A stretch of 64,000 nucleotides of DNA from Salinimicrobium tongyeongense (GTDB taxonomy: Bacteria > Bacteroidota > Bacteroidia > Flavobacteriales > Flavobacteriaceae): positions 1,984,001 through 2,048,000 of the forward strand of contig NZ_CP069620.1 of NCBI RefSeq assembly GCF_026109735.1, in the 5' to 3' direction. Of the stretch, positions 28,356-46,381 are shown one piece after another; positions within the stretch are counted from its first letter, which is position 1; each line of letters opens with the position of its first letter. Both the position numbers and the translations under genes were made by a program. The notes below the pieces were generated by a model. The model was not told the DNA's origin. It searched no databases and was given only the letters and a program-made list of their open reading frames with translations.

Positions 28356-28400
28356 TAAAATTAAAAGTATAGGGAGGGGGAGAATATGACTGGGATCATA
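28356..28400 (-). promoter_or_regulatory. Crp/Fnr-type promoter of the haemoglobin operon
   Basis: A perfect palindrome TATGA-CTGGGA-TCATA (28385-28400) is centred 36.5 bp from the 3' base of TAATTTTA (28356-28363, minus strand), a -7-like element. This is class II activator spacing and is identical at four other promoters here. A second weaker box (TGATAAAGATCA, 28421-28432) lies 34 bp further upstream. Confidence 0.75.
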
Positions 28401-28453
28401 AAACAGGACATTTGTGTCCCTGATAAAGATCATAAGAGGCTGGTAATGAAGTT

Positions 28454-29047
28454 CTACCGGTAGACTTTTCTCTTCTTTATTTGCAGTTCCCCTTTCTTTT
28501 CAAGAGATTTTGTGGCGCGTATCACGGTCTCTACCCGCAGGCCGGTAAGATCGGCAAGCTGTTGGCGGGTAAGGTTTAGACGGTAAGTGTACTTTCCTTC
28601 AACTTTATCTACATGCTTTAGATAATCTATGATACGAAGAATCCTGTGCTCGGGTTCCTGACTCGATATTTCTGAAACCATGATGGCTTTGTAGTAAAGC
28701 CTTTTTGCCAGGGTTTCGGTGATCTTGAGATGAACTTTTGGATTTGACGAAAGCAGTTCTAAAAATTGCTCTTTTGAAAGCTGAAAAACTTCGGCATCCG
28801 AAATTGCTTCGGCGTTTGCCGGATATTTCACGTTTGCCAGCAGCGGCGGTTCTCCAAAACTCTGCCCTATAGAAAAGATTCCCTGAATGAACTCCTTGCC
28901 ATCTTCGTTGTAGTTGTTCATCTTGATCTCTCCTGAAGCTACCTGGTAGAAATTAAGAGCCGATTCCCCTTCGCGGAATAACTGATCTCCTTTAGAAAAA
29001 GCCACGCGTTTGGCGCCATGGTTAAGCAACAGGTTCTCGTCTATCAT
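28454..29047 (-). CDS. Crp/Fnr family transcriptional regulator
   Basis: A 197-residue regulator with an N-terminal cyclic-nucleotide-like beta-roll (about 10-125), a dimer helix, and a winged helix whose recognition helix is RVETVIRATKSL. The Glu and Arg spaced as in Fnr/Dnr proteins favour TGA/TCA half-sites. The protein has no cysteine at all, so it cannot hold the oxygen-sensing iron-sulphur cluster of E. coli Fnr. A heme- or NO-based sensor like Dnr is more likely. It is last in a six-gene run starting at 33312 whose promoter has a TGA/TCA box, so it may be self-regulated and may control nirK, the cbb3 locus, ccoI and the haemoglobin operon. Confidence 0.88.
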   Translation of the reverse strand: MIDENLLLNHGAKRVAFSKGDQLFREGESALNFYQVASGEIKMNNYNEDGKEFIQGIFSIGQSFGEPPLLANVKYPANAEAISDAEVFQLSKEQFLELLSSNPKVHLKITETLAKRLYYKAIMVSEISSQEPEHRILRIIDYLKHVDKVEGKYTYRLNLTRQQLADLTGLRVETVIRATKSLEKKGELQIKKRKVYR

Positions 29048-29051
29048 AAAA

Positions 29052-29351
29052 CTACTGGTGGGAATTTATGAGCTCAACCAGGTTGGCCTTGGGCACCACG
29101 CCCGATTGCCGCCATAGTTGTTCGCCATTTTTAAAGAGAATAAGGGTGGGCACGCCCCGTACCTGAAATTTTTCGGCCAGCGCCTGATTTCTGTCTACAT
29201 CTATCTTTACTATTTTCACCTTGTCCCCCAAATCGGCTTTGGCTTCTTTAAGTATGGGCGCAAGGGTTTTGCAGGGGCCACACCAGTCGGCAAAAAAATC
29301 TACAAGCACTGGTTTATCATCCTGGATGATCTCGCTAAATTTACTTTTCAT
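29052..29351 (-). CDS. Thioredoxin
   Basis: A 99-residue cytoplasmic thioredoxin with the redox motif WCGPC (C24 and C27), the buried Asp region VDFFADW, and the cis-Pro in [11 protein letters not shown]. No signal peptide. It starts 4 bp before the Crp/Fnr gene and lies 64 bp after the CoA-transferase gene, so it belongs to the low-oxygen operon. It is a dithiol reductant; the specific partner is unknown. Confidence 0.93.
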
Positions 29352-29383
29352 ATTTTCTTTTTTAAAGCTATCTAAAGGTACTC

Positions 29384-29398
29384 AAAAATGGCATTTTT
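29384..29398. repeat. Dispersed palindrome copy G
   Basis: AAAAATGGCATTTTT followed by GGAAAGTATTTTCAG, inside the operon between the CoA-transferase stop and the thioredoxin start, so it is transcribed. In RNA it would form a short AU-rich hairpin before the thioredoxin gene. Confidence 0.7.
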
Positions 29399-29415
29399 GG
29401 AAAGTATTTTCAGGC

Positions 29416-30690
29416 CTACCTTATTCCGGAGAGCCTTTTATGAGCTTCCTCTTCCAGGGCTGCCCTATGGTTTGGGTGAGCGATAGAGATGAGGGCTTTA
29501 GCTCTTTGTTTCAGGTTTTTTCCGTAGAGATTTACCACGCCGTATTCTGTAGCGATGTAATGCACGTGTGCCCGGGTAGTGGTAACACCTGCGCCTTCGC
29601 GTAGGCTGGGAACGATCTTGGAAATGCCTTTTGCGGTGGTTGAAGGCATGGCAATTATGGCTTTTCCGTCTTTAGAGAGGGAAGCCCCACGAATAAAATC
29701 CATTTGTCCGCCCACGCCCGAGTACTGGTAAGTTCCAATGGTATCGGCGCAAACCTGGCCGGTAAGGTCAATTTCTATGGCGCTGTTTATGGCAGTTACC
29801 TTAGGGTTCCTTCTAATGATCGCAGTGTCATTGGTGTAAGCCGCTTCTTTAAAATGTATCATTGGGTTATCGTCAATGAAATCGTACAGCTTTGGGGAGC
29901 CTAGCGCAAAGCAGGTCACGATCTTGCCGGTTTTCACCTCTTTTTCTTCCCCGGTGATGATGCCTTTTTCAATAAGCGGTAAAACCCCGTCAGAAAACAT
30001 TTCGGTGTGAATCCCAAGGCGTTTGTGGTTCATGAGGTTGCTGAGCACCACATTTGGAATGGCACCAATTCCCATTTGCAGGGTTGCGCCGTCTTCAATG
30101 AGTTCGGCTACATTTTTTCCTATTTGCTTTTCAATTTCTGAAGCTTCTACAGGCAGGTGTGAGTGTAAAGGTAAATTTGCCTCTACTGCGGCTGTGATCT
30201 GGCTTACGTGAATAATCCCGTCACCGTGGGTTCTTGGTACCTGCGGATTTATTTGTGCAATCACCGTTTTAGCGGTTTGTATGGCAGGCAGGGTAATATC
30301 TACGGAAAGGCCCAGCGAACAAAACCCGTGTTTATCGGGAGGGGAAACCTGAATAAAAGCCACATCAAGCGGAAGGATATTCTTCCTGAATAAAATGTGG
30401 ATCTCGCTTAAAAAAATAGGAATGTAAGCCCCGTATTCCGAATTTACCGCATCGCGCACATTGCCGGCGGCAAAACAGCTGTTAAGGGAAAAAGCTTCCC
30501 TGTAGGGTGGCTGGGTGTACTTGGCAGGGCCTTCGGTATGAATATGAAAAATCTCTACATTCTTAAGCTCTTTGTAGCGATCAACAAGGGCATCTATCAG
30601 GATATTGGGCGTCATGGCCGCTCCCTGGAAAAATATTCTGTTACCCGATTTTACATAAGACACGGCCTGGGCAGCACTGACTAATTTCAT
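29416..30690 (-). CDS. Acetyl-CoA hydrolase/transferase family protein
   Basis: A 424-residue class I CoA-transferase, like 4-hydroxybutyrate CoA-transferase or acetyl-CoA hydrolase. It moves CoA between acyl groups through a glutamyl-CoA thioester. The catalytic Glu lies in NSAIEIDLTGQV, and GVGGQMDFIRGA and the N-terminal GNRIFFQGAA fit the family. Length is usual. It lies 5 bp downstream of a YceI gene in the operon 33312-28454. A fermentative acid/CoA exchange function under low oxygen is an inference. Confidence 0.88.
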   Translation of the reverse strand: MKLVSAAQAVSYVKSGNRIFFQGAAMTPNILIDALVDRYKELKNVEIFHIHTEGPAKYTQPPYREAFSLNSCFAAGNVRDAVNSEYGAYIPIFLSEIHILFRKNILPLDVAFIQVSPPDKHGFCSLGLSVDITLPAIQTAKTVIAQINPQVPRTHGDGIIHVSQITAAVEANLPLHSHLPVEASEIEKQIGKNVAELIEDGATLQMGIGAIPNVVLSNLMNHKRLGIHTEMFSDGVLPLIEKGIITGEEKEVKTGKIVTCFALGSPKLYDFIDDNPMIHFKEAAYTNDTAIIRRNPKVTAINSAIEIDLTGQVCADTIGTYQYSGVGGQMDFIRGASLSKDGKAIIAMPSTTAKGISKIVPSLREGAGVTTTRAHVHYIATEYGVVNLYGKNLKQRAKALISIAHPNHRAALEEEAHKRLSGIR

Positions 30691-30695
30691 ATTCT

Positions 30696-31268
30696 TTATT
30701 TTTTTACCTGGAGGTTAAATTCAATATCGATCTCGTCTTTTACAACGATCATCCCAAACAGCTTTTTTGGAGCCTCTAGGCCGTAATCTTTGATGTTGAG
30801 GTGCAGTTTTCCTTTAAATTCGGCTATCACGGCGTTCTTTATGCCAACAGGCAGCTCGTAGAACCTTTCTTTGCCTGCTATGGTAATGCCCACTTTTGCG
30901 ACTGCTTTTGTAGGGGAAGACATGCTTACTTCAGTGAGCTCGAGAAGTATTTTTGGGTGTTTGTCGGTTTGCAGGAGGTCGTGAAAATCGCGGTTAATAC
31001 CTTTGCTGCCGCAGTCAAAGCCCTTGTTGTTAAGAGTGAGAACGGCTCCTGTAAATACAATTTTACTGCCCTGCTGGGTGTAGGTGATGTTCTGAGAATC
31101 TTCTAAATATGAATTATCGAATTCACATTTAAAAGCGGCAATGTTAGAATCGCCAATAATAGTAAGCTCACTGCTGGGGAGCACTGTGATCTTTCTTTTC
31201 TGAAAATCCTGTGCGCATGTTACCGCACTACAGAAAAGCACCAATAAAACAAACGCAATTTTTTTCAT
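30696..31268 (-). CDS. YceI-like periplasmic protein
   Basis: About 190 residues with a signal peptide (KKIAFVLLVLFCSAVTCA). I prefer the Met at 31268 over an upstream Met at 31310 because the latter puts 14 non-signal residues before the signal peptide. The mature part is a YceI-type lipocalin-like beta barrel, a fold known to bind isoprenoid lipids. The typical motifs (TIIGDSN, GDEI near the end) are diverged compared with the paralogue at 32722. It stands between the porin-like and CoA-transferase genes. Confidence 0.8.
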   Translation of the reverse strand: MKKIAFVLLVLFCSAVTCAQDFQKRKITVLPSSELTIIGDSNIAAFKCEFDNSYLEDSQNITYTQQGSKIVFTGAVLTLNNKGFDCGSKGINRDFHDLLQTDKHPKILLELTEVSMSSPTKAVAKVGITIAGKERFYELPVGIKNAVIAEFKGKLHLNIKDYGLEAPKKLFGMIVVKDEIDIEFNLQVKK

Positions 31269-31341
31269 TTTTTTAAAGTTAAAAAAAATGGGGGAATTTA
31301 ATTCCCCCATTTTCTGGCTAGTTCAAACGAATCTTAATTTC

Positions 31342-32664
31342 TTAGAAGCTGATTACTGCTTCGACGTTAAAGCCGTTGAATTGTCCTTCATGGTGGATAT
31401 CCGCTTGTGGATAGTCATTGTAGTTCTGGTTAACATACTCAACTTTAGTTAAGATGTTTTTGGTCATAAACCATCCACCTCCAATGTTGAAGCGGTTAAC
31501 TTTTACATCATCACCAGATTTAAGTTCACCGTTTACAGTGTTGTAACGTGCACCTAAGTAGAAGTTTTCATCTGCTCCAAATCTGTAAAGAAGTTCACCG
31601 GCGTACTGGTTCCAGGTTCTTTCGTCAGTTTCAGAAGCATATTTTCCTTTGGCTCTTTCATAGATTCCGAAGAATTCAAGACCACCTGCTTTGATGAAAG
31701 GGTTGATCATGAAAGCAGTCATTTCATTTTTAAGGTCGGGGTTAATTCTACCAGATCTAAAGCCGTCTCCAACTGCAGTTCCGTCAGGAAGGCTACCGCT
31801 CATTACGTTGTAGTATCTTGAACCTGCACGGTCACCGCTGTAAAGGTAGATGTTTTTGCTTTGGTTGCTGTGGAATAGAGATCCTGTCAATCTAAATCTG
31901 AAGTCTTCAGAAATTTGCTTGTCATAACCTATTTTGGCTAAAAGAGATGGGCTGGTGTGGCCTTCACTGCTGGTTGACTGGTTCAATTTACCGTTGGTGA
32001 ATCCAACCATACCTAACCATCCGTCGTTGAAATAGTAGATCTCACCACCTACTTCAGTAGTAAAGCTGTCCATAAGGTAGTTTCCAACAAATGGGTTGTA
32101 AAGAGCCATCGCGTTGTCAGATCTTCTGAAGTGGGCGTCACCGTAGTTGTTCTCCATGTGACCAAACTTAATTCTCAAGTGCTCCATAAGTCCTGAAGCA
32201 AGACCTTCGCTGATGAAGTCAAGGTTGTCTACCTGCAGGTACCCGCCTTTTACGTAAGCTTCTGGGTGGTGTTGAGAAGAAAGATAGGTGTTAAGGTGTA
32301 CTCTAACTCCTTTTGCAAGAAGAATGTCAAAGGTCATGTTTGCAGTAGCAAGGTTAAAATCTTTTCCAAGCTCATATACAGGGAGAGTGCTTTCGTTTTC
32401 CTGCTCAAGACCCTGGAACTGTAGTGCAAATGCACCTCCAAGTCTTACCTGTACTCCTTCAAATTCTTCAAGGTTAATATCTTTGTTAGGTTCAAAAGTA
32501 TTTACACCGCGTTGATCTGGATATCTGTAGTTAGGAAGGCTTCTATCCCAAAGGGTTTTGCTGTCGTTGTCTTCCACAACCAGAACATCTACATCTTGTG
32601 CCTGTGCCTGAAAGCCCATGGCCATCAAGAGGGCAATACCGGAATATTTAATTAGATTTTTCAT
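31342..32664 (-). CDS. Porin-like outer-membrane beta-barrel protein
   Basis: A 440-residue protein with a signal peptide cleaved after FQAQAQ near residue 22. The mature sequence shows alternating amphipathic strands and ends in FNVEAVISF, with the terminal Phe expected of outer-membrane barrels. It has a loose resemblance to phosphate-selective-type porins (LRIKFGHMENNYGDAHFRR). It is flanked by two YceI genes in an operon with a Crp/Fnr-type promoter. The substrate is unknown. Confidence 0.8.
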   Translation of the reverse strand: MKNLIKYSGIALLMAMGFQAQAQDVDVLVVEDNDSKTLWDRSLPNYRYPDQRGVNTFEPNKDINLEEFEGVQVRLGGAFALQFQGLEQENESTLPVYELGKDFNLATANMTFDILLAKGVRVHLNTYLSSQHHPEAYVKGGYLQVDNLDFISEGLASGLMEHLRIKFGHMENNYGDAHFRRSDNAMALYNPFVGNYLMDSFTTEVGGEIYYFNDGWLGMVGFTNGKLNQSTSSEGHTSPSLLAKIGYDKQISEDFRFRLTGSLFHSNQSKNIYLYSGDRAGSRYYNVMSGSLPDGTAVGDGFRSGRINPDLKNEMTAFMINPFIKAGGLEFFGIYERAKGKYASETDERTWNQYAGELLYRFGADENFYLGARYNTVNGELKSGDDVKVNRFNIGGGWFMTKNILTKVEYVNQNYNDYPQADIHHEGQFNGFNVEAVISF

Positions 32665-32721
32665 TTTTGATACATTAAAAAAGTTGATAGTTGAATTTTA
32701 AAATTTGTCGTTGAATTAGAA

Positions 32722-33312
32722 TTATTTAGTAAAAACAGTCTGGAATTTAATGTTGACTTCATCTCCTGTGGTGATAGTTCCAAACATGGCTGTTGGGGGA
32801 TCCACTTTAAAATCGGTCATTTTTATTTTTTTGTCGCCGCTTAGAGTGATTTTGTCACCGGCAACTTTGGCATCAAAGATCAATTCTACGTTCTTCTTGG
32901 TGCCTGCAATGGTAAGTACACCATTAGTAGTTACCTTACATGAGGTTTTTGAAGTGCAATCAAGGTTTTTAACGCTTGATAATTCGTAGGTGATTCTTCT
33001 GTGCTTATCGGTATCAAGAGCCTTATAGGTGTTTTTGTCCATTCCGCCCTTTCCACTCTTCAAGCTTTCGGCAACTACTGCAAACTGTAATTGATCAAGT
33101 TGCACCAATTGTCCGTCTTCCATTTGAACCTTTATACTTCCCTGGAGTTCTTTTGCGCTTAACTCCCAATCATGTATGTTTGAGGTTCCTTCCACTTTTA
33201 AACTGGAGGCTCCGCTATTTACATTAAAGGTTTGCCCTGCCATAGTATTGGCAGAAAAGACCATTACCAGAAAGCTTCCAATTACTAACCAAAGGTTCTT
33301 TTTTGTGTTCAT
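32722..33312 (-). CDS. YceI family periplasmic protein
   Basis: A 196-residue protein with signal peptide (LVIGSFLVMVFSANTMAGQ) and the YceI signature: SLKVEGTSNIHDWEL, LKSGKGGMDKNTYKALD, and GDEVNIKFQTVF at the end. The family binds amphiphilic or isoprenoid ligands in the periplasm. First gene of the six-gene operon running down to the Crp/Fnr gene. Its promoter carries the TATGA-N6-TCA box. Confidence 0.88.
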   Translation of the reverse strand: MNTKKNLWLVIGSFLVMVFSANTMAGQTFNVNSGASSLKVEGTSNIHDWELSAKELQGSIKVQMEDGQLVQLDQLQFAVVAESLKSGKGGMDKNTYKALDTDKHRRITYELSSVKNLDCTSKTSCKVTTNGVLTIAGTKKNVELIFDAKVAGDKITLSGDKKIKMTDFKVDPPTAMFGTITTGDEVNIKFQTVFTK

Positions 33313-33335
33313 GATTTTTGTTTTTAATTATGATA

Positions 33336-33380
33336 CAAAGATGGCACAGATATGAGCGGTAGAGTATGACGCGGGTCAGC
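33336..33380 (-). promoter_or_regulatory. Crp/Fnr-type promoter of the yceI-porin operon
   Basis: TATGA-CGCGGG-TCAGC (33365-33380), with the inner palindrome TGAC-GCGG-GTCA, is centred 36.5 bp from the 3' base of CATCTTTG (33336-33343, minus strand), a one-mismatch TAnnTTTG element. The spacing is the same as at nirK, ccoS, ccoI and the haemoglobin operon. Confidence 0.72.
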
Positions 33381-33681: not shown

Positions 33682-33687
33682 CAACTA

Positions 33688-34389
33688 TTAGTGGCAGCTT
33701 GCCGAAGCATTCACCACAGCCGTTTGTGGCGCAGGAGATAGATATGGAATATCAAGGCCCATTCCTCTTATAATAAAGAGAAGGCCAATCACAACTACAA
33801 CAACCGGAATGAACCTTTGCACCTGCTTTCTCAAGGCTCCTCCCAGAAATCGGCTAAAGTAGACTGCGGTGGTCATAAGAGGAATGGTGCCAAGGCCAAA
33901 GATTACCATATAAAGGCTTCCTGTGAGCATTTCGCCCGAAGCCAGCGCGGCAAATACGGCCATATACACCAGGCCACAGGGCAGCAGGCCGTTTAAAAAG
34001 CCAATAGTAAAGAAAGTATCGGGCGTTCTTTTTTTGAGGGCGGCCCCCAAAGATGATTTTATCTGCCCCACAAACCGGTACAATGGCCGGGAAAAATTTA
34101 TTTTGCTGAAGCTTTTGGATGGTAGGAGTATGGCCAGGATCATAAGAACCCCAATCCCAATAGACAGTTGTTGCTGGATCCCAAAAAGGTCAAAACTCTT
34201 GCCCAGTAGCCCAAACACCAGGCCTATTAGCGCATATGAGAAAAGCCGCCCAAAATGGTACAGGAATATCTGAAGCAGTTTCAACACTTTATTGTCACGC
34301 GACAACGGAAGCATAAATGCAATTGGGCCGCACATCCCAATGCAGTGAAAACTGCCAAGTAGGCCTAATATGAAGGCAGAGTAGAGCAT
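33688..34389 (-). CDS. TauE/SafE-like membrane protein of the cbb3 locus
   Basis: A 233-residue protein with six helices. The first helix carries GSFHCIGMCGP and a later one GFLNGLLPCGLVY, giving paired Cys/Pro motifs like those of DsbD-type and heavy-metal-handling membrane proteins. In Bacteroidetes and proteobacteria this gene regularly closes cco loci, and a role in copper or thiol transport for oxidase assembly is likely but not proven. Its start overlaps the ccoH stop by one base. Confidence 0.85.
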   Translation of the reverse strand: MLYSAFILGLLGSFHCIGMCGPIAFMLPLSRDNKVLKLLQIFLYHFGRLFSYALIGLVFGLLGKSFDLFGIQQQLSIGIGVLMILAILLPSKSFSKINFSRPLYRFVGQIKSSLGAALKKRTPDTFFTIGFLNGLLPCGLVYMAVFAALASGEMLTGSLYMVIFGLGTIPLMTTAVYFSRFLGGALRKQVQRFIPVVVVVIGLLFIIRGMGLDIPYLSPAPQTAVVNASASCH

Positions 34390-34835
34390 TAATACAGGAT
34401 ATCCTCTTTAAAATAGAATTTTTCGCCCTTGTATTCCCAGTCAATAATAATGTTCCAGCGGCCGTCTATAAAGCGACTATCAGGTACGAGCAATTGATGT
34501 GAGGACAATGAAAGAGGAATTTCAGAGTCCAGCTGCTTGTTTGACGGCCGGTACAGGAACACATTTCCTTTAATGGAAGTAAACTCAAGTTCTGCCGGAA
34601 AAGTGATCAGCAAACCTTCGGGAGTTTGTTCCAGGTTGATATTTTCTGAAAGCAGGCCGGCATTTTTAGTCTTGTCCAGCTGCTCCTGAAATGTGAGTTC
34701 GTTTTTGTAATATTCTTCCACAACCAAATCATGGCTGTAAGCTTTATCGGTGATCATGGTGATCACAAAAAACATGATGAAGGCTATAAAACTAAATATA
34801 GCCAGTACCAGTGATGTGCCCCAGGATATTTTCAT
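34389..34835 (-). CDS. ccoH: FixH/CcoH family oxidase assembly protein
   Basis: A 148-residue protein with one N-terminal membrane helix (LVLAIFSFIAFIMFFVITM) and a periplasmic beta domain ending in DWEYKGEKFYFKEDIL, typical of FixH. It helps assemble or stabilise cbb3 oxidase. It lies 227 bp after ccoG, a gap that contains a dispersed palindrome copy and a hairpin-rich stretch, and overlaps the TauE/SafE-like gene. Confidence 0.87.
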   Translation of the reverse strand: MKISWGTSLVLAIFSFIAFIMFFVITMITDKAYSHDLVVEEYYKNELTFQEQLDKTKNAGLLSENINLEQTPEGLLITFPAELEFTSIKGNVFLYRPSNKQLDSEIPLSLSSHQLLVPDSRFIDGRWNIIIDWEYKGEKFYFKEDILY

Positions 34836-34950
34836 GATCTTGTCTTTTAATTTTCAGAAGAACTTGGTCTTTCTGAGGTTTCTTATTTCTCTATTTGTTG
34901 AACAGTCTGCCTATTCGTAATTCCTTTGCTTTACTCTTTTATTACTCCTC

Positions 34951-34965
34951 AAAAATGGCATTTTT
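34951..34965. repeat. Dispersed palindrome copy I
   Basis: AAAAATGGCATTTTT followed by GGGAAGTATTTTTCAG and, 19 bp on, TTTTTCTGCGGAAG. It lies between ccoG and ccoH within the presumed operon and represents the longest version of the repeat. Confidence 0.72.
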
Positions 34966-35061
34966 GGGAAGTATTTTTCAGTTCTTTTTCTGCGGAAGGC
35001 TTCAGTATCGCTTTGAATACCACTGTTGCTGAAGGTTTTTTCTTCAGCAGCCGTTATTTTA

Positions 35062-36480: not shown

Positions 36481-36506
36481 TTCCTGCTGCCTTTCCTGTA
36501 TTTATC

Positions 36507-37561: not shown

Positions 37562-37566
37562 GACAG

Positions 37567-39759
37567 TTAGTTTGTTGAAGTTGTTGAATTGACCACTTTA
37601 ATATCTGTTCCCAATCGCTGGATGTAAGCGATAAGGGCAACGATCTCGCGATCTTTCATTTCAATAAATTCCAGTCCGTTCTCTTCAGCATATTTTTTAT
37701 CGGCTTCATAAGTGGTCACAAAGTCGGGATCACTGTAAAGGTTTTGCTGAATTTTGGTAGCCTGTTCTTCCATGTGGGCCTGGGCGTTGGCTATCTCGGC
37801 TTCGGTATATGGAACTCCCAGTTGTACCATGGCCTTCATTTTATCTTCAGTTTCAGAACGGTCATGTTTGCTGGTGATCAGCCACTTGTAGCCGGGCATG
37901 ATAGAACCAGAGGAGGTACTTTGCGGGTCATACATGTGGTTGAAGTGCCAGTTATCTGAATATTTTCCTCCCACCCTCATAAGGTCGGGGCCTGTACGTT
38001 TACTTCCCCACAAGAATGGATGGTCATAAACATATTCCCCGGCTTTCGAGAATTCGCCGTAGCGTTCTACTTCACTTCTAAAAGGGCGGATCATTTGTGA
38101 GTGGCAGGAAACACAGCCTTCTCTAATGTAGATATCCCTTCCTTCAAGTTCCAGTGGCGTATAAGGTTTAACGCTGGTGATGGTTGGAATATTAGATTTT
38201 ACCAGCAGGGTTGGCACTATCTGGATAATACCTCCTATAAGAATTGCGATAGTAGCTAAAACTGTAAGCTGCACCGGCTTGCGCTCCAGCCAGGTGTGGA
38301 AACCTTCTCCCACAAGTCTTCTATTGCTTATTTTTTGTAGGGGAGCTGCTTCGGCAAGTTCGTCTGTAACTTCGGTTCCGGTTTTAATGGTTTTGTATAC
38401 GTTGTACAGCAGGATGAACATTCCGAAGATATACATACTACCTCCAATGGCCCTAAACCAGTACATTGGCATGATCTCGGTTACAGTTTCCAGGAAGTTT
38501 CCGTAGACAAGGGTACCATCGGGGTTAAATTGTTTCCACATTGAAGCCTGTACAAAACCTGCAACATACATGGGCAGGGCGTATAGGATAATACCTAAAG
38601 TACCTGTCCAGAAGTGGGCGTTGGCAAGCTTAACCGAATACAACCGGGTTTTAAACATTCTTGGCACTAGCCAGTATACCATCCCAAAGGTTAAGAACCC
38701 GTTCCAGGCAAGTGCGCCTACGTGTACGTGTGCAATTACCCAGTCGCTAAAGTGGGCAATGGCATTTACGTTCTTAAGAGAGAGCATTGGGCCTTCAAAA
38801 GTGGCCATCCCGTAGCCGGTGATGGCAACCACCATGAATTTTAGAACAGGATCTGTCTTAACTTTATCCCATGCGCCACGCAGGGTAAGGAGCCCGTTGA
38901 TCATACCACCCCATGATGGCATCAGCAGCATTACCGAAAAGGCAACTCCAAGGTTCTGAGCCCAATCGGGTAGTGATGAATAAAGCAAGTGGTGAGGTCC
39001 GGCCCAGATGTATATAAATATTAAGGACCAGAAGTGAATAATAGATAACTTGTATGAGTACACAGGGCGGTTGGCAGCCTTGGGCACAAAGTAGTACATG
39101 AGCCCCAGGAAGGGTGTGGTCAGGAAGAATGCTACGGCATTATGTCCGTACCACCACTGTACCAATGCATCCTGAACTCCTGCATAAACTGAATAACTCT
39201 TAAATAAACCAACCGGAATTGCAAGGCTGTTAAAGATATGTAGTACTGCAACGGTTACAAAGGTTGCGATGTAGAACCAAATGGCTACATACAAATGGCG
39301 TTGTCTTCTCTTAAAAATAGTAGCGATGAGGTTCCACCCAAAAACAACCCATACCACAGCAATAGCAATATCAAAAGGCCATTCCAGTTCGGCGTATTCT
39401 TTAGAACTGGTGAAGCCCAGGGGAAGTGTAATGGCCGCTCCAACAATAATTAACTGCCAGCCCCAGAAGTTGATGTTGCTCAAAATGTCACTGTACATAC
39501 GGGCTTTGAGCAGCCGCTGGGTAGAGTAGTATACTCCTGCAAAAATAGCATTCCCCACAAAAGCAAAGATCACTGCATTAGTGTGCAGCGGGCGAAGGCG
39601 CCCAAAACTTAACCAGGAAACTCCGTCGGTCAAATTAGGGAAAAGGAATAAAAAGGCCAAAAGAAGCCCGACTGTCATTCCTATGACTCCCCAAAAAAGG
39701 GTGGCGTAAAGGAACTTTTTTACGATTTTGTTGTCGTAGTAGAACTGTTGCAATTCCAT
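37567..39759 (-). CDS. ccoNO: cbb3-type cytochrome c oxidase, fused CcoN-CcoO
   Basis: This 730-residue protein joins the catalytic subunit I and the monoheme subunit II. The CcoN part (about 1-480, twelve helices) holds the heme and copper ligands: RLRPLHTNAV, WWYGHNAVAF, the adjacent pair in GPHHLLY, and the pair in AHVHVGA. The CcoO part follows one more helix and has CVSCH near residue 550 and GPDLMRVGGKYS. It is the oxygen-reducing, proton-pumping core with high oxygen affinity. The fusion is usual in Bacteroidetes. It starts 4 bp after ccoS. Confidence 0.96.
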   Translation of the reverse strand: MELQQFYYDNKIVKKFLYATLFWGVIGMTVGLLLAFLFLFPNLTDGVSWLSFGRLRPLHTNAVIFAFVGNAIFAGVYYSTQRLLKARMYSDILSNINFWGWQLIIVGAAITLPLGFTSSKEYAELEWPFDIAIAVVWVVFGWNLIATIFKRRQRHLYVAIWFYIATFVTVAVLHIFNSLAIPVGLFKSYSVYAGVQDALVQWWYGHNAVAFFLTTPFLGLMYYFVPKAANRPVYSYKLSIIHFWSLIFIYIWAGPHHLLYSSLPDWAQNLGVAFSVMLLMPSWGGMINGLLTLRGAWDKVKTDPVLKFMVVAITGYGMATFEGPMLSLKNVNAIAHFSDWVIAHVHVGALAWNGFLTFGMVYWLVPRMFKTRLYSVKLANAHFWTGTLGIILYALPMYVAGFVQASMWKQFNPDGTLVYGNFLETVTEIMPMYWFRAIGGSMYIFGMFILLYNVYKTIKTGTEVTDELAEAAPLQKISNRRLVGEGFHTWLERKPVQLTVLATIAILIGGIIQIVPTLLVKSNIPTITSVKPYTPLELEGRDIYIREGCVSCHSQMIRPFRSEVERYGEFSKAGEYVYDHPFLWGSKRTGPDLMRVGGKYSDNWHFNHMYDPQSTSSGSIMPGYKWLITSKHDRSETEDKMKAMVQLGVPYTEAEIANAQAHMEEQATKIQQNLYSDPDFVTTYEADKKYAEENGLEFIEMKDREIVALIAYIQRLGTDIKVVNSTTSTN

Positions 39760-39763
39760 TCTT

Positions 39764-39952
39764 TTAATTGTCTTGATTAATTTTACTCGATTTTGTTGAT
39801 TTCTCTTTTACAAGCTCATCCTCAAAAAGAATACGCACCGACGGGGTATAGTCATCGTCAAACTGGCCGTTACGCACGGCAACAATAAAAACAACGAAAA
39901 ACAATACCGCTACAATAATGCTTATTGTAAGGAGTAAATAGATGACGCTCAT
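39764..39952 (-). CDS. ccoS: cbb3 oxidase assembly protein CcoS
   Basis: A 62-residue protein with one N-terminal helix (IYLLLTISIIVAVLFFVVFI) followed by the family motif GQFDDDYTPSVRILFED. It is needed for heme and copper insertion into cbb3 oxidase. It is the first gene of the cco operon, whose promoter faces nirK. Confidence 0.93.
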   Translation of the reverse strand: MSVIYLLLTISIIVAVLFFVVFIVAVRNGQFDDDYTPSVRILFEDELVKEKSTKSSKINQDN

Positions 39953-39970
39953 ACCTATTTATATATCAGG

Positions 39971-40015
39971 CAAAACTACAGGCATTGTTATTTTTTAAAT
40001 ATGATTTCGGTCAGG
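39971..40015 (-). promoter_or_regulatory. Crp/Fnr-type promoter of the cco operon
   Basis: TATGA-TTTCGG-TCAGG (40000-40015) is centred 36.5 bp from the 3' base of TAGTTTTG (39971-39978, minus strand), an exact TAnnTTTG element. The start codon of ccoS is about 19 bp further on. The 176-bp gap to nirK holds both divergent promoters. Confidence 0.78.
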
Positions 40016-40052
40016 TTTCGTTAGAAAAACATTTGTAAAAAATTCAGTCATA

Positions 40053-40097
40053 TATGATTAGGCTCATATATAAGAGAGAACTTAATTCGGACATTTG
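40053..40097 (+). promoter_or_regulatory. Crp/Fnr-type promoter of nirK
   Basis: TATGA-TTAGGC-TCATA (40053-40068), extended to a perfect 7-bp inverted repeat (40051-40070), is centred 36.5 bp from the 3' base of GACATTTG (40090-40097), a one-mismatch -7 element. This is the most symmetric of the five boxes. Confidence 0.8.
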
Positions 40098-40128
40098 TAT
40101 CTGAAATTAATATTAAACACATCTGATC

Positions 40129-41583
40129 ATGAAAAATTTCAAACATTCAAAAAAGAGACTTGCCTGCGTTTTCTTTCTTGCAGCCCTTGTAGCAGGGATA
40201 TTTACCTCTTGCGATAAAGCAGTTGCTGCCAAAGAAAACCCCGAACTAATGAAAGTATATGGAGAGAGCGAAGCCGAAATGACTTCTCCTCCAATGGTAC
40301 CAAGACCTGTTGGAAAAAGAGCTGCTACCAAACTCATCGTTAATATGGAAGTAGTAGAAAAAGAAATGGAGATGAGCGACGGGGTAAGTTATGTGTACTG
40401 GACCTTTGATGGTACAGTTCCCGGAAGTTTTATTCGTACCCGTGTTGGAGATGAAGTTGAATTCCACTTAAAAAACCACCCAGACAGTAAATTGCCACAC
40501 AATATTGACCTGCACGCGGTAACAGGACCTGGTGGTGGTGCCGAATCTTCTTTTGTAGCTCCCGGCCACGAAGCTGTATTTACTTTTAAAACCATGAACC
40601 CTGGTCTGTATGTATACCACTGTGCCACAGCTCCTGTTGGGATGCACATCGCTAATGGTATGTACGGTCTTATTCTTGTTGAGCCAGAAGGTGGTCTTGA
40701 GCCGGTTGATAAAGAATATTATGTAATGCAGGGGGATTTCTATACTGAAGGTGAGAACGGCGAAAGAGGCCTGCAGGCTTTCAGTATGCAGAAAGCAGTT
40801 GATGAAGATGCAGATTATGTAGTGTTTAATGGTAAAGTTGGTGGCCTTACAGGAGACAACGCCTTAACTGCAAAAGTTGGTGAAACCGTACGTCTCTTTG
40901 TAGGTAACGGTGGCCCTAACCTGGTTTCTTCCTTCCACGTGATTGGAGAGATCTTTGACAAAGTATATCTTGAAGGTGGTGCCATGATCAACGAGAACGT
41001 GCAAACCACTTTGATCCCCGCCGGTGGTGCCGCCATCGTAGAATTTAAAGTTGAGGTGCCCGGGAACCTTGTATTGGTAGATCACTCCATCTTCAGAGCA
41101 TTTAACAAAGGAGCCCTGGGGATACTTAAAGTTGAAGGCGAAGAAAATGAAAAAGTTTTTGGAGGTAAAATTGAAGAGAAAGTATACAATCCCGGAGTAA
41201 CTGCTACCGAAGAAGCTACCGAAGAAGTAACTGAAGACGCACCTGTGGCCAGTACTTCTTTAGCCCAAAAAATGGAAAGGGGAAAACAAATCTACACCCA
41301 AAACTGTCTTGCCTGCCACCAGGCTACCGGTAACGGGATCCCCAATGCTTTTCCTCCACTTGCAAATTCCGATTATTTAAATGCCGATGTGCATCGTGCC
41401 ATAGAAGTGGTGAAGTTTGGTCTTAGCGGTGAAATTGAGGTGAACGGGAATGTTTACAACAGCGCAATGCCAAAGCAAAACATTTCAGATGAGGATGTTG
41501 CAAATGTTCTCACTTATGTTTATAATAACTGGGGCAACAACAAAACTGAAGTGACTGCCGAAATGGTGAAGAAAGCGAAGTAA
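40129..41583 (+). CDS. nirK: Copper nitrite reductase with fused C-terminal cytochrome c
   Basis: A 484-residue enzyme that reduces nitrite to NO. The N-terminus is a lipoprotein-type signal (AGIFTSCDK). Two cupredoxin domains follow: [10 protein letters not shown] with the catalytic Asp and type-2 copper His, [16 protein letters not shown] with type-1 copper Cys, His and Met, FHVIGE with the second catalytic His, and [10 protein letters not shown]. After an acidic linker of about 30 residues a cytochrome c domain carries CLACH near residue 396. The fused domain probably delivers electrons directly. It heads an operon with a nirV-like and a SCO gene and is divergent from the cbb3 locus. Confidence 0.95.
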
Positions 41584-41610
41584 TTAGCAGTTAACAAAAA
41601 ATTTAAAGAA

Positions 41611-42390
41611 ATGAAGACCTTAACCAGATTGGCAGTATGCATCGCGATAATGATCCAGGGCCAGGCCTATAGCCAGTCTGGTGCCATGGTCGAAGTCCGC
41701 GGGGGGGAATTCATTCCTCTCTACGGAACAAAAACCGAAGTTCCTGTAGGCAATTTTTTGATGGATGTCTATCCCGTGACCAATGCCGAATTCCTGGAGT
41801 TTGTAGAACAAAACCCGCGTTGGAGGAAGTCTCAGGTAAAACAACTGTTCGCCGATGAAAATTACCTGCGCAGCTGGAAAAATGACTTGAGCCTGGGTAG
41901 CGATAACCTGCCCAACTCGCCGGTGACAAATGTCTCCTGGTTCGCTGCGAAGAACTACTGTGAATGCCAGGACAAAAGGCTGCCTAGCATTGATGAATGG
42001 GAGTATGTGGCCATGGCAAACGAGACCAGCCCCGATGCCCGTTCCGAGAAATCCTATAACCAGTATATCTTAAGCTGGTATGAAACGCCCAATACCTTTA
42101 AAAATACCGTGGGCAATACCTTCAAGAATTATTGGGGAGTGTTCGATCTTCACGGCCTGGTTTGGGAATGGACTTCCGACTTTAATTCGGTGATGATTGG
42201 GGGTGAATCCCGGCAGGACAGCACAGGTGACAACAACCTCTTTTGCGGGGCCGCCGCAGTTGGCGCCACAGACCTTATGAACTACGCAGCTTTTATGCGC
42301 TATGCCTTCCGCGGAAGCGTAAAAGCAAGGTATTCGGTGAAAAACCTTGGCTTTAGATGCGTCAGGGATATTGAAAAATCAAATTTATAA
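41611..42390 (+). CDS. nirV: Formylglycine-generating-enzyme family protein (NirV-like)
   Basis: A 259-residue exported protein (signal peptide ending AYSQSGA) of the SUMF1/FGE-sulfatase fold: EVPVGNFLMDVYPVTNAEF, PVTNVSWFAAKNYCEC, LPSIDEWEY, GVFDLHGLVWEWTSD and a C-terminal LGFRCVRD. This family member regularly follows nirK and is called NirV; its role in nitrite reduction is unproven. It lies 27 bp after nirK and 2 bp before the SCO gene. Confidence 0.88.
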   Translation: MKTLTRLAVCIAIMIQGQAYSQSGAMVEVRGGEFIPLYGTKTEVPVGNFLMDVYPVTNAEFLEFVEQNPRWRKSQVKQLFADENYLRSWKNDLSLGSDNLPNSPVTNVSWFAAKNYCECQDKRLPSIDEWEYVAMANETSPDARSEKSYNQYILSWYETPNTFKNTVGNTFKNYWGVFDLHGLVWEWTSDFNSVMIGGESRQDSTGDNNLFCGAAAVGATDLMNYAAFMRYAFRGSVKARYSVKNLGFRCVRDIEKSNL

Positions 42391-42392
42391 GC

Positions 42393-43010
42393 ATGAAAAA
42401 AGTAGCTTTTATATTGCTTTCCATAGTTCTTTTTACTGCATGTAACAATGTCAAAAAAGAGGAAGAAAAGGTTGAAGAAGTTGCAGCAAACACCACAGAG
42501 GTAAAAGGAGAGCTGCCCGAATTGTCTATCTACAACCTTCCATCCACCTGGACCACTCAAAACCACGAGGATATTCAGCTGGAAGATCTCCGCGGAAATG
42601 TGCTGGTCATGGTAATGATCTACACTTCCTGCAAGGCCGCCTGCCCACGACTCATCGCCGATATGCGCAATATCGAAAAACAGGTGCCCGAAGAGTATCT
42701 CGACAAGACAAAGTTCATCATGGTGAGTATTGATCCTGAAACCGATACGCCGCAAAGGCTCAACGCTTTTGCCAGGGAGAATGAAATGGAAGACAACCAC
42801 TGGCTGTTCCTTCGCGGTACGCCCGAAGACACCCGTGAGTTTGCAACCGTACTGGCCGTAAGCTATAAAAAGATCTCGCCCATAGATTTCTCACACTCCA
42901 ATATTATCAGCGTTTTTGACGAAGAAGGAGTGCTGGTTCACCAGCAGGAAGGCCTTGGGGTAGACAATACCGAAACCGTAGAAGCCATTAAAACTGAAGT
43001 TTCAAATTAA
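42393..43010 (+). CDS. SCO family copper chaperone
   Basis: A 205-residue lipoprotein (lipobox LFTACNN) with a thioredoxin-like fold. The copper motif is CKAACP near residue 76 and the conserved His lies in FSHSN. MVSIDPETDTP is a family signature. SCO proteins deliver copper; in this operon the natural target is NirK, though cbb3 oxidase is also possible. A long hairpin terminator follows. Confidence 0.92.
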   Translation: MKKVAFILLSIVLFTACNNVKKEEEKVEEVAANTTEVKGELPELSIYNLPSTWTTQNHEDIQLEDLRGNVLVMVMIYTSCKAACPRLIADMRNIEKQVPEEYLDKTKFIMVSIDPETDTPQRLNAFARENEMEDNHWLFLRGTPEDTREFATVLAVSYKKISPIDFSHSNIISVFDEEGVLVHQQEGLGVDNTETVEAIKTEVSN

Positions 43011-43031
43011 GTAAAGTAAGATCAGATAGCC

Positions 43032-43144: not shown

Positions 43145-43201
43145 AATCCTCATCTCCCATTCCCCAATTAGTTTTGTTCAGGGGTGGCAGCAGCATTTTA
43201 T

Positions 43202-43355: not shown

Positions 43356-43380
43356 GAAAATGTCTTACCACCTGGTCCAG

Positions 43381-43940
43381 GTAGGTTTTAATATTTTTTT
43401 AAAGTCAGAAACAGTTGTTATTTGTATAATATTGTAATTGATAAAGTACAAATAGATGTACAAATAATGATTCGATAATTTTTGGATGGTTGCCAACCTT
43501 CTTATCACTATTTCTGAAAAGCTCAAATACTGAAAAATGTTTTTCGGGTTCTCTTTCTGCTTTACCTTCAGCAGGCTGGGAATGATCATTAGACCTGAAG
43601 CCTTTAAGCCAGTCAAAAATGGCATTTTTGGCCCCTCTTTTTCCTGGATCCTTTCCTGTTCAGTAGAATTACATTCCTTAAAAAGCGGCAAATTTCCGAA
43701 GCTAAAAAAAGGGAGTTAGCCTGGTGTATTAATTGCGGGGGTGTCAAAAAAGGGATTTTGAAGACTGCTTTAAAACAACAAGAAGCAAGTAGGGGGTTGC
43801 TCTCTTGTCGCCATTCCGGCCTGTGGCAGGAAAAACAAATAATCACATTTCTAATGTAGACGTTTTTCTCCCTAATTCCCAACTTTTTCTGAGAAAATCG
43901 GCTGCAGCAGTTTTTTTAGTAGAATTCGGTCTTCAAAAAG
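43381..43940. other. Gene-free stretch between yoeB remnant and ccoI
   Basis: AT-rich, with one dispersed palindrome copy at 43615-43629. Open frames on the minus strand (for example 43613-43882) have unlikely composition. The degraded 5' part of the toxin gene may extend to about 43420, where an out-of-frame SDFKKILK occurs. Confidence 0.4.
43615..43629. repeat. Dispersed palindrome copy J
   Basis: AAAAATGGCATTTTT preceded by GTC and followed by GGCCCCTC; the downstream extension seen in other copies is absent here. Confidence 0.65.
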
Positions 43941-46310
43941 CTAAATTTTGCGTCCGATAATGTTGGTGCACAGGGTTGTAAAAGCAATGATGCTTATAGA
44001 GCTGAAGGGCATAAGGATCGCAGCGATAATGGGCGATAACTGCCCGGTCACTGCAAAATACAGCCCCACAACGTTGTACAGAAAAGACAGTACCATACTA
44101 ACTTTAATAACGGTCATGGCCTTTTTTGACGCCCTGATGAAGTTTGGCAAACTTCCAAACCTGCTGGCGTCTAAAATGGCATCGCAGGCGGGAGAGAAGA
44201 CGTTCACGTTTTCAGAAATGGCAATTCCCACTTCACTTTTGGCCAGTGCCCCCGCATCATTGAGCCCGTCACCTACCATAATGGTCTTTTTTCCTTCTTT
44301 TTGAAGGGAGGCGATATAATCCAGTTTGTTTTCGGGCTTCTGGTTAAAGAGCATTTGGGTGTTTTTAGGCAGCAGGGCTTCCAGCCTCGATTTTTCGCCC
44401 TCATTGTCACCCGAAAGTATGGAAAGATGGTAATTTGGGGCGAGATCGTCAAAAAGCTCTTTTACGCCTTCGCGGTATTCATTAAAAAAGATATACCGGC
44501 CCTTATACTCGTTATTGGCACTAATGTGTACCGAGGTGTTGAGGGAAGTGCCGTGTGCCGTGCTGCCCACAAACTCTGCCGAACCCACCTTCATGGCTTT
44601 TTGCCGGTGCACAGCTTCTATTCCTTTACCTACAACTTCCCGGCATTCTTCAGGCGGGGCAATGTCATATTCGGCCAGCATATCGTAGAGGCTTCGACTT
44701 AACGGGTGGTTTGAAGCGCGCAGGGTATTCTTCAGAAGGGATTCTTCTTCCGCAGTTAAAGTGATGCCTTCATAACTAATGCTGCTTTTCTTGTTTGAGG
44801 TAATGGTGCCGGTTTTGTCAAAGATCAGGGTGTCGGCTTTGGCCAGCTGCTCAATCACCCCGGCATTTTTCAGGTAAAATTTCTTATTTCCAAATATGCG
44901 CAGCAGGTTGCCCAGGGTGAAAGGTGTAGACATGGCCAGGGCGCAGGGGCAGGCAATAATGAGCACTGCGGTAAAGACATTGATGGCTGTGGCCACATCT
45001 AAGAACATCCAGTAAGCGGCGGCCGTGAACGCAATTAAGAGCAAAACTATGGTGAAATATTTGCTGATGTGGTTGATGAACGAGGTAAACGAATCTTCCT
45101 TTTTGACCTGGAAAACGTCGTTGCTCCACAACTTTGTAAGGTAGCTTTGAGAAACCGATTTAAGTGCTTCCATCTCAATCATCCCCGAAACCTGCCGCCC
45201 GCCCGCAAACAATTTGTCTCCCGATGCTTTCTCTACAGCTTCCGACTCTCCCGTTACAAAACTGTAGTCTATACGGCCTTTCCCGTTGATGAGAATTCCG
45301 TCTACCGGGATGAGCTCTTCGTTCCTGATTAAAATGCGATCGCCCTTTTCGATGTCGTGAACGTGGATGCTTTCTTCTTTGCCGTCAGGATTGATGCGGG
45401 TGATGCCAATGGGAAAATACGATTTGTAATCCCTCTCAAAAGAAAGGAAGTTGTAGGTCTTTTGCTGAAAGAATTTTCCGAGGGTGAGGAAGAATACGAG
45501 TCCGGTGAGGCTGTCAAAAAACCCTGGGCCCCAGTCAAAAATGATTTCGAGGCTGCTGCGCACAAAAAGCACCAGCACGCCCAGGGCAAGGGGCACGTCT
45601 ATATTGAGGATCTTTGCCCGCAGGCCTTTGTAGGCCGAAATAAAATAATCTTGCGCCGCATAAAACACCACCGGGAGCGAAAAAGCAAACATGAGCCACC
45701 TAAAAAGGCCTTTATACTGCTCCAGCCAGTATTCGTTTACTTCAAAATATTCGGGGAAGGAAAGGAACATGACATTTCCAAAAGCAAAACCGGCAACGCC
45801 CAGCTTATAAATAATGCTGCGGTTGATCTTTTTCTTCCCGGTTTCACTGTCGTCAAGGCTTATGTAAGGTTCATAGCCAATGCTGCTAAGGAAGAGCACC
45901 AGGTCTTTTAGATTCAGTTTTTCTGAATTATAGGTAACGCGCAGGCTCTTTTTAGGAAAATCTACCTGTGAGGCCGTGATGGAAGGCTTCAGTTTATTGA
46001 GGTTTTCGAGGATCCAGATGCAGGAACTACAGTGAATATGCGGGATGTACAGCGAAATCACCTGCAGGTTTCCGTCGTTGAACTCCAGGAGCTTGTCAAC
46101 GATCTTCCCGTTGCTCAAAAAGTCGTATTTCCCTTCGAGTTTTGCCGGCGCTGCACCGGGAGCCGCCTCCATATCGTAGTATGAAGTAAGGCCGTTCTCC
46201 GAAAATATCTCGTAGACGGTCTTGCAGCCATTGCAGCAAAAAGACTTCTCATCAAAGCTAACGCATGACTTAATCGCATCACCGCAGTGATAACAAGAAA
46301 GTGCTTCCAT
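43941..46310 (-). CDS. ccoI: Copper-transporting P-type ATPase of the cbb3 locus
   Basis: A 789-residue P1B ATPase that exports copper to the periplasm for oxidase maturation. The N-terminal region has the FixI-type cysteine cluster (CYHCGDAIKSC and CCNGCKTVYEIF) and a heavy-metal domain with HCSSC near residue 94. The transport motif is CPCALAMSTPF, the phosphorylation site DKTGTIT, and the hinge GDGLNDAGALAKS. These mark the CopA2/FixI type. Its promoter has the same Crp/Fnr box as nirK and ccoS, so it is coregulated with them despite being a separate unit. Confidence 0.94.
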   Translation of the reverse strand: MEALSCYHCGDAIKSCVSFDEKSFCCNGCKTVYEIFSENGLTSYYDMEAAPGAAPAKLEGKYDFLSNGKIVDKLLEFNDGNLQVISLYIPHIHCSSCIWILENLNKLKPSITASQVDFPKKSLRVTYNSEKLNLKDLVLFLSSIGYEPYISLDDSETGKKKINRSIIYKLGVAGFAFGNVMFLSFPEYFEVNEYWLEQYKGLFRWLMFAFSLPVVFYAAQDYFISAYKGLRAKILNIDVPLALGVLVLFVRSSLEIIFDWGPGFFDSLTGLVFFLTLGKFFQQKTYNFLSFERDYKSYFPIGITRINPDGKEESIHVHDIEKGDRILIRNEELIPVDGILINGKGRIDYSFVTGESEAVEKASGDKLFAGGRQVSGMIEMEALKSVSQSYLTKLWSNDVFQVKKEDSFTSFINHISKYFTIVLLLIAFTAAAYWMFLDVATAINVFTAVLIIACPCALAMSTPFTLGNLLRIFGNKKFYLKNAGVIEQLAKADTLIFDKTGTITSNKKSSISYEGITLTAEEESLLKNTLRASNHPLSRSLYDMLAEYDIAPPEECREVVGKGIEAVHRQKAMKVGSAEFVGSTAHGTSLNTSVHISANNEYKGRYIFFNEYREGVKELFDDLAPNYHLSILSGDNEGEKSRLEALLPKNTQMLFNQKPENKLDYIASLQKEGKKTIMVGDGLNDAGALAKSEVGIAISENVNVFSPACDAILDASRFGSLPNFIRASKKAMTVIKVSMVLSFLYNVVGLYFAVTGQLSPIIAAILMPFSSISIIAFTTLCTNIIGRKI

Positions 46311-46336
46311 AAAAATTGCTCGTTTCGTACCGGGTA

Positions 46337-46381
46337 CAAAGGTTGAAAATGAGCGGGTTGGAAAATATGATGCCGGTCATG
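46337..46381 (-). promoter_or_regulatory. Crp/Fnr-type promoter of ccoI
   Basis: TATGA-TGCCGG-TCATG (46366-46381) is centred 36.5 bp from the 3' base of AACCTTTG (46337-46344, minus strand), a one-mismatch TAnnTTTG element. Confidence 0.72.

Follow-up and report, generated by a model that had tools for sequence, protein, structure and literature searches.

A probable family-wide class II CRP/FNR promoter code at low-oxygen and nitric oxide genes of Flavobacteriaceae

The closest described counterparts of the system reported here, a set of five promoters with a common palindromic box in a 64,000 nt stretch of the Salinimicrobium tongyeongense genome (NZ_CP069620.1, positions 1,984,001 to 2,048,000; hereafter, the window), are the class II FNR promoters of Escherichia and Aliivibrio, where the FNR site is centered near −41.5 and has the half-site TTGAT. 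The cluster cysteines of FNR are C20, C23, C29, and C122 in the E. coli numbering. A further counterpart is NssR of Campylobacter, a CRP/FNR regulator of nitrosative stress that lacks the FNR cysteines and neighbors the globin gene ctb. In one source, NssR is assigned the motif TTAACnnnnGTTAA and the residues A180/Q181, HcpR2 of Bacteroides the motif GTAACnnnnGTTAC with P at 181 in most members, and both HcpR2 and DNR/NnrR are described as regulators of nitrogen oxide genes without the FNR cysteine motif; the same source gives a recognition rule in which R180 pairs with G3 and E181 with A6 (PMC1274295). Another study calls the Flavobacteriales CRP/FNR homologue of its community MalR-like and reports that, for the organisms it discusses, it found nothing to indicate that CRP/FNR factors control denitrification (PMC8510549). 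No prior CRP/FNR promoter code for Flavobacteriaceae was found in the literature searched, a search that reached few subscription journals.

Box and promoter spacing in the window, the genome and the family

All five boxes that an earlier, sequence-only reading had placed in the window were found at the same positions, and, read on their promoter strands, they share one layout, namely nnTGA-N6-TCATA, 21 bases, and an 8-base element resembling a −7 element. The distance from the center of the box to the 3' base of this element is 36.5 bp in each of the five promoters, as that reading had claimed, and this fixed distance supports its view of the boxes as CRP/FNR-type sites in the class II position. 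Only the half nearer the promoter, TCATA, is constant among the boxes; in the distal half, the five share no more than nnTGA (TATGA, GCTGA, CCTGA, TATGA, and CATGA). On the minus strand, the promoter of the p96-globin operon (28356-28400) consists of the box at 28385-28400 (TATGATCCCAGTCATA on this strand), 21 bases, and the −7-like TAATTTTA at 28356-28363; the promoter of the yceI-porin-yceI-CoA transferase-thioredoxin-crp run (33336-33380) combines the box at 33365-33380 with CATCTTTG at 33336-33343; the promoter of ccoS-ccoNO-ccoP and later genes (39971-40015) has the box at 40000-40015 and TAGTTTTG at 39971-39978; and the ccoI promoter (46337-46381) has the box at 46366-46381 and AACCTTTG at 46337-46344. 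The nirK-nirV-sco promoter (40053-40097) lies on the plus strand, with the box at 40053-40068 and GACATTTG at 40090-40097. The first gene starts 23-31 bases from the −7 element at four of the five promoters. At nine Salinimicrobium loci, the p96-globin promoter shows the identical spacing and the box of the yceI-to-crp promoter is conserved.

These promoters resemble the class II FNR promoters of Escherichia and Aliivibrio in the TGA core, in two recognition-helix residues (E and R), and in the kinds of target genes, but differ from them in the half-site, ATGAY instead of TTGAT, and in the partner promoter, nAnnTTTG. The earlier reading described the latter as TAnnTTTG-like; a −7-like element is present at the fixed spacing in all five promoters, and only two of the five begin with TA. 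Our search patterns fixed nAnnTTTG and left the first base free; this base was T at 58 of 71 sites from genomes with a receiver-CRP fusion (REC-CRP) as the only regulator, 32 of 39 sites from genomes with only an FNR-type regulator, and 9 of 17 sites of the S. tongyeongense genome, and the Bacteroidota promoter motif, TAnnTTTG at −7, was found among these sites.

Within the window, TATGAN6TCA occurs 10 times versus 1.61 expected, a count not reached in any of 100 shuffles; the five boxes account for seven of these matches, as two of them are palindromes and are counted in both directions, and the other three matches are elsewhere. In the entire S. tongyeongense genome (one contig, 3.51 Mb), the pattern CAAANNTN{8,38}ATGAN6TCA, which covers 31 spacings, yielded 74 box/−7 pairs, 20 of them at the window spacing compared to a mean of 1.8 at the other 30 spacings (Poisson P 9e-15). 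The window supplies four of these 20 matches; the globin promoter was missed because its −7 element ends in TTTA. Among the 16 fixed-spacing matches outside the window, 12 have a gene start at most 150 bp downstream and three lie inside long open frames, one of which, by sight, is followed by what is probably the real start of an Rrf2 gene, whereas among the 20 of 54 other-spacing matches that were examined, three have a gene start and 17 lie in long frames (P 0.0005). A control with a 5-base spacer showed no enrichment in this genome (25 versus 22 for the reversed pattern). A second, smaller accumulation in this genome comprised seven pairs at gap 13, one helical turn closer (P 0.003). It has no counterpart in seven genomes with only REC-CRP (2 of 109 matches) and is, therefore, probably a chance effect.

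Across 120 Flavobacteriaceae genomes from 119 genera, the pattern CAAANNTN{23,24}ATGAYN4RTCA was matched 1045 times, versus 61 times for the reversed pattern; at least one match was present in 108 genomes and at least three in 97, compared to one genome for the reversed control. With the 5-base spacer, matches were present in only 47 of the 120 genomes versus 108 with the correct spacer. In the seven REC-CRP-only genomes, 71 of 109 matches were at the window spacing, with 21 spacings searched. Beyond the family, in a phylum sample of 247 genomes that includes 27 family members with a total of 267 matches, three genomes of another family of the same order had 8, 12, and 9 matches, and 31 genomes of other families of the class had 108 matches versus 6 for the reversed pattern; the 186 genomes of other classes mostly had 0-2 matches, with a maximum of 6. 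At the cco operon, of 29 genomes lacking an FNR-type regulator that were surveyed, three had no ccoNO match, and the box was found in 25 of the remaining 26, in all 25 at exactly the window spacing. The scan for pairs at fixed spacing that the sequence-only reading had proposed thus revealed enrichment over the reversed, wrong-spacer, and gene-start controls, and equal numbers in control sequence, the outcome which that reading had named as its refutation, were not observed.

In three genomes, a single palindrome is located between two divergent promoters, each with a −7 element at the window spacing or one base more (G017:C2:256994-257067, G102:C1:747669-747742, and G108:C1:980678-980751).

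Candidate readers of the box

The regulator suggested in the sequence-only reading is the CRP/FNR-family protein encoded at 28454-29047 on the minus strand of the window (hereafter, window Crp). This protein of 197 residues belongs to the CRP/FNR superfamily (PF00027, 8e-20; PF13545, 1e-8) and has the recognition helix VETVIR. It is not FNR proper, as it contains no cysteine and none is conserved in an alignment of 60 sequences, and in this respect it resembles HcpR2, DNR, and NnrR. Neither is it a cAMP-CRP (cAMP, cyclic AMP): YPA replaces the R-S that the cAMP cassette of cAMP-CRP carries, and the NCBIfam CRP model gives 65.8 bits versus a cut-off of 266. In the 60-sequence alignment, GEPPL, YPA, and most of the helix residues are at least 95% conserved, H106 is present in 52 sequences, and H134 is present in 51. 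Like NssR, window Crp adjoins a globin, the best solved relative of which is 2ig3, which we take to be Campylobacter Ctb; unlike NssR, it has V and E at positions 180/181 and its adjoining box is TGA-N6-TCA. The recognition rule described above fits the flavobacterial system: V, T, or S takes the place of R180 and A that of G3, whereas E181 and A6 are retained, which also distinguishes this system from HcpR2.

The S. tongyeongense genome encodes six proteins with PF00027, and three of these have an E-[S/T]-x-I-R helix: window Crp, REC-CRP1 (1.258 Mb; SETLIR), and REC-CRP2 (2.748 Mb; TESFIR). Two others have different helices (RETLSR and SRVVVSR), and the remaining one is long and of a different type. 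In the REC-CRP proteins, a receiver domain is fused to the CRP domains (PF00072, PF00027, and PF13545), and the gene of REC-CRP1, a response regulator, is preceded by a histidine kinase gene (HisKA/HATPase). The third type of regulator, found in relatives, is an FNR-type protein of about 225 residues with cysteines at positions 4, 7, 53, and 106. It was not found in S. tongyeongense by a search in which the best match (5e-30) was the REC-CRP of this genome. Across the relatives, the helices are mostly TESAIR in the FNR-type, TESLIR in REC-CRP, and VETVIR in window Crp, and two of the FNR-type members listed have KEACIR; the recognition residues E-x-x-I-R are common to all three types. A tree of 35 sequences separates the groups, with good support for window Crp (100/98) and REC-CRP (95/99) and weak support for the FNR-type (61/38). 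In three genera (loci L104-L106), the REC-CRP and FNR-type genes adjoin, with a stress protein between them.

The FNR-type protein can be aligned to 9qly, the solved structure of an FNR-type regulator that we take to be the Aliivibrio FNR protein. Three of the four cluster cysteines are in place (C20, C23, and C122, for the protein of locus L097), but the place of C29 is occupied by N, unlike in FNR; C53 is retained in the FNR-type members listed (e.g., L097:3389-4063), so the fourth cluster ligand is possibly a different one. By sequence, the best solved relative of the FNR-type is Crp-Pg (2GAU) of Porphyromonas gingivalis, for which no cAMP binding was reported (PMC12040651). This alignment begins only at residue 35 of the FNR-type and excludes the N-terminal cysteines.

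The number of boxes per genome follows the regulator content, with the presence of regulators judged by eye from E-values and frame lengths among the matches listed (for G020 and G043, the FNR-type assignment is based on weaker matches, 1e-45). Genomes with none of the three regulators have 0.8 boxes on average (20 genomes, median 0; 19 of them have 0-2), and the average is 2.5 with window Crp only (2 genomes), 10.5 with REC-CRP only (16), 7.8 with the FNR-type only (37), 15.2 with FNR-type and REC-CRP (21), 11.7 with REC-CRP and window Crp (12, S. tongyeongense included), 6.6 with FNR-type and window Crp (7), and 12.6 with all three (5). The difference between any regulator and none is highly significant (P 1e-11), and among genomes of at least 2.5 Mb, the 93 with a regulator have a mean of 10.6 boxes, whereas the 6 without have 0-1. 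Overall, the average is 9.8 with window Crp and 10.5 without it. These counts imply that an FNR-type or a REC-CRP regulator suffices for the presence of boxes and that window Crp adds none.

The spacer of the box carries further information on its reader. With TGA numbered as positions 1-3, A at position 5 (A5) or T at position 8 (T8) was found at 60 of 78 positions in FNR-only genomes (39 sites from G017, G044, G082, and G107, excluding matches that were one base longer), 86 of 142 in REC-CRP-only genomes (7 of the 9 genomes searched, excluding G108 and G113), 1 of 40 at sites linked to window Crp (20 sites hand-picked from 42 matches at gaps 23/24, excluding near-copies and most Salinimicrobium sites and retaining a few sites not adjacent to crp), and 5 of 34 in S. 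tongyeongense (17 of the 20 fixed-spacing matches, excluding three chance-like ones). None of the five boxes of the window has A5 or T8. Boxes of the YY..RR class account for 68 of 254 in genomes with window Crp versus 85 of 774 in genomes with only the other two regulators (per-genome P 5e-6; 3e-5 without the genus Salinimicrobium). The mean fraction is 0.27 with versus 0.045 without window Crp among genomes with FNR-type but no REC-CRP (P 7e-5), and 0.29 versus 0.13 among those with REC-CRP but no FNR-type (P 0.008); no difference was observed where FNR-type and REC-CRP are both present (0.18 versus 0.15, P 0.43). A comparison within genomes avoids most of the problem of shared ancestry: in 12 sampled genomes where the FNR-type coexists with window Crp, the FNR-type gene adjoins a ccoI box that has A5 in 10 and T8 in 11, whereas the Crp-side box, available for 10 of these genomes (G033 has none within 1 kb, and that of G100 is just beyond 1 kb), has A5 or T8 in none (P 1e-4 for A5 and 3e-5 for T8). 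Judging from these sequence differences, window Crp and the FNR-type very probably read distinguishable variants of the spacer. Of 24 other genomes with an orthologue of window Crp, 22 have a box beside it, at the window spacing or with one additional base, and in 19 of these 22 the box is ahead of p96 and/or the globin gene.

Genes behind the boxes

To judge from their content, the genes preceded by boxes form a low-oxygen and nitric oxide (NO) regulon with members outside the window and in other genera of the family, which agrees with the response regulon proposed in the sequence-only reading and widens it. In the window, the p96-globin operon begins with p96 (28040-28330, minus strand), a small protein gene that is kept beside the globin gene in relatives and has no Pfam family above the cut-off, followed by the group III truncated hemoglobin (27638-28024, minus strand; 2ig3, E 4e-11), which has no Pfam match. 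Behind the 33365 box, thioredoxin (by sight), CoA transferase, YceI, a porin-like protein (weak match), and a second YceI are encoded at 29052-33312 on the minus strand in a single same-strand run with crp, an arrangement compatible with autoregulation; this gene order is maintained in loci L001-L008 and L010.

The cco promoter is followed by ccoS (FixS, cbb3 maturation; 39764-39952, minus strand; E 2e-19), which is absent from the list of 90-residue open reading frames. The presence of ccoS between the box and ccoNO explains the apparent 211-base leader, and a box-to-ccoNO distance of about 250-350 bases recurs in relatives lacking the FNR-type. The remaining cbb3 oxidase genes (33688-39759, minus strand) include the ccoNO fusion and ccoP, both matched, ccoG and ccoH by sight, and a DsbD_2-type membrane protein. 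On the plus strand, 40129-43010 encodes NirK with a C-terminal cytochrome c domain, the FGE-sulfatase-like NirV, and SCO1. The gene at 43941-46310 (minus strand) encodes a heavy-metal P-type ATPase according to P-type ATPase models and is named ccoI from its context; the box at ccoI is also present in genomes containing the FNR-type.

Outside the window, boxes precede RIC/ScdA-hemerythrin followed by qNorB, a universal stress protein gene, pyruvate formate-lyase (with an adjoining activase, by sight), hemN, formate-tetrahydrofolate ligase, two hemerythrins, an Rrf2 regulator with nadA-nadB (both by sight), deoC, an outer-membrane beta-barrel gene, a gene for a 131-residue protein followed by a CusA-type pump, and genes for a 599-residue protein without a Pfam family and a 176-residue hypothetical protein. 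Downstream of the 599-residue protein gene and beside a TauE-type gene (37133-40564 of the genome), the CRP/FNR protein with the SRVVVSR helix is encoded. In genome G007, locus L126 unites much of the system within 19.5 kb, in the order kinase, REC-CRP, box, universal stress protein, box, RIC, qNorB, box, ccoI together with sco-nirV-nirK, two boxes, and ccoNO; the layout of the nirK promoter recurs there, and the crp locus is farther along the same contig. In S. tongyeongense, the REC-CRP/NO-reductase part is located at 1.257 Mb and the remaining genes of this island at 2.01-2.03 Mb.

One promoter code and its possible readers

In our assessment, the promoter code is real and family-wide, it is probably of the class II kind, and its regulator is probably not one protein. 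From the boxes, their spacing, enrichment, and conservation, the gene content, the co-occurrence with regulators, and the helix residues, all read directly from the genomes, we infer binding, activation, the start site, the signals, and the share of each regulator as follows. Dimeric CRP/FNR-family activators would bind the boxes near −41.5 and help the Bacteroidota RNA polymerase to start at the weak −7 element nAnnTTTG. Activation would occur under low oxygen in the presence of nitrogen oxides, and would include the cbb3 oxidase, nitrite reductase, copper delivery, and the globin, as well as, elsewhere in this genome, NO reductase, the RIC repair protein, hemerythrins, anaerobic heme synthesis, and pyruvate formate-lyase. 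The code could be read by an FNR-like protein with the FNR-type cysteines, by REC-CRP beside its histidine kinase, or by the cysteine-free window Crp. In S. tongyeongense, which has no FNR-type, window Crp would most likely read the promoters of the globin and of yceI-crp, the latter in a feedback loop, and REC-CRP, alone or with window Crp, would read cco, ccoI, and nirK. The position of window Crp beside a group III globin, which recalls NssR, suggests NO as its signal. A shared class II code at low-oxygen and NO genes with three interchangeable sensor types and this division of the readers is, we think, a likely explanation. A more specific scenario, in which the code was kept to the base pair and the sensor exchanged, an iron-sulfur FNR in some lineages and a two-component REC-CRP in others, with window Crp reading a spacer variant and perhaps having taken over more promoters in Salinimicrobium, appears to us evenly balanced between right and wrong.

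The claim of the sequence-only reading that window Crp regulates the promoters is supported for some of the boxes, given the 22 adjoining boxes in 24 genomes and the location of the gene in the yceI-to-crp run, but not for this protein as the sole regulator of all five. Exclusive reading by window Crp would agree with its adjacency to conserved boxes, with the YY..RR association, which holds also in genomes with only one of the other two regulators, and with the lack of A5 and T8 in all five boxes of the window. We nevertheless consider it unlikely: genomes without window Crp have as many boxes, the spacer difference disappears where FNR-type and REC-CRP coexist, and S. tongyeongense has two REC-CRPs with the same recognition residues. 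Moreover, in genomes lacking the FNR-type, the cco box is present in 15 of 16 without window Crp, as in 10 of 10 with it, and in 8 of these 10 the cco box has T8, as with other readers. The converse assignment, in which no protein but REC-CRP1, with its kinase, reads cco, nirK, and ccoI, and window Crp reads its neighbors or nothing, is a serious but somewhat doubtful possibility. REC-CRP-only genomes hold as many boxes, the cco box persists with or without window Crp, and T8 is missing from the cco box only in G007, G031, and G111 among the 25 genomes, and in S. tongyeongense; a REC-CRP of S. tongyeongense groups with those of G031 and G111 (99/96), and window Crp is missing from G111, a pattern that a shift in REC-CRP specificity explains no worse than a take-over by window Crp does. 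However, this assignment does not account for the box adjoining window Crp in nearly all genomes that have it, the higher frequency of YY..RR boxes in its presence, or the spacer-only scores, by which the Crp class is best for all five boxes of the window (if by small margins, 1.1-5.8 log units over REC and 0.3-11.2 over FNR). The boxes might also be repressor sites that block RNA polymerase until oxygen falls, which the sequence would allow and which FNR-family proteins, in general, can do. Repressor sites usually vary in position, though, and here one position relative to the −7 element, that of class II activators, dominates in S. tongyeongense, in the seven REC-CRP-only genomes, and upstream of cco, making repression very improbable. 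Chance palindromes in A+T-rich intergenic DNA are contradicted by the spacing peak and by the reversed-pattern, wrong-spacer, and gene-start controls, and we give this explanation almost no weight.

Several observations weigh against a class II code with divided readers. The −7 elements of the five window promoters are degenerate (first two bases TA in two, and CA, GA, and AA in one each), and three of the 20 fixed-spacing matches of the genome appear to be due to chance (one inside dnaN, one inside an opposite-strand gene, and one with no gene near). Genome G048 (82% complete) has nine boxes, with none of the three regulators found, and both G010 and G046, which were counted as regulator-free, lack boxes but contain a CRP/FNR match of a more distant kind. 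The genomes share ancestry, and the statistics on box number and spacer class ignore kinship. Finally, when flanks are included in the scoring, the boxes of the truncated hemoglobin, yceI, and ccoI are assigned to REC-CRP, that of cco to FNR, and only that of nirK to Crp. The underlying three-class model of spacer and flank assigned 75 of 84 sites of other genera correctly (leave-one-out, with eight additional Crp sites that were hand-picked). As an assignment of readers to the five boxes it was set aside as not decisive: the flanks in Salinimicrobium differ, and even the box beside crp scores as REC.

With the class II code and divided readers as the preferred explanation, the code would represent class II CRP/FNR activation fitted to promoters of the Bacteroidota type, in which one sensor can replace another. 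The rule of a box, 21 or 22 bases, and nAnnTTTG predicts low-oxygen and NO regulons in a large environmental group of bacteria, and the exchange of sensors behind a conserved promoter becomes directly testable. If the more specific scenario of sensor exchange is true, a core respiratory regulon would have replaced direct oxygen sensing with a phosphorelay as its low-oxygen input while its promoters stayed as they were.

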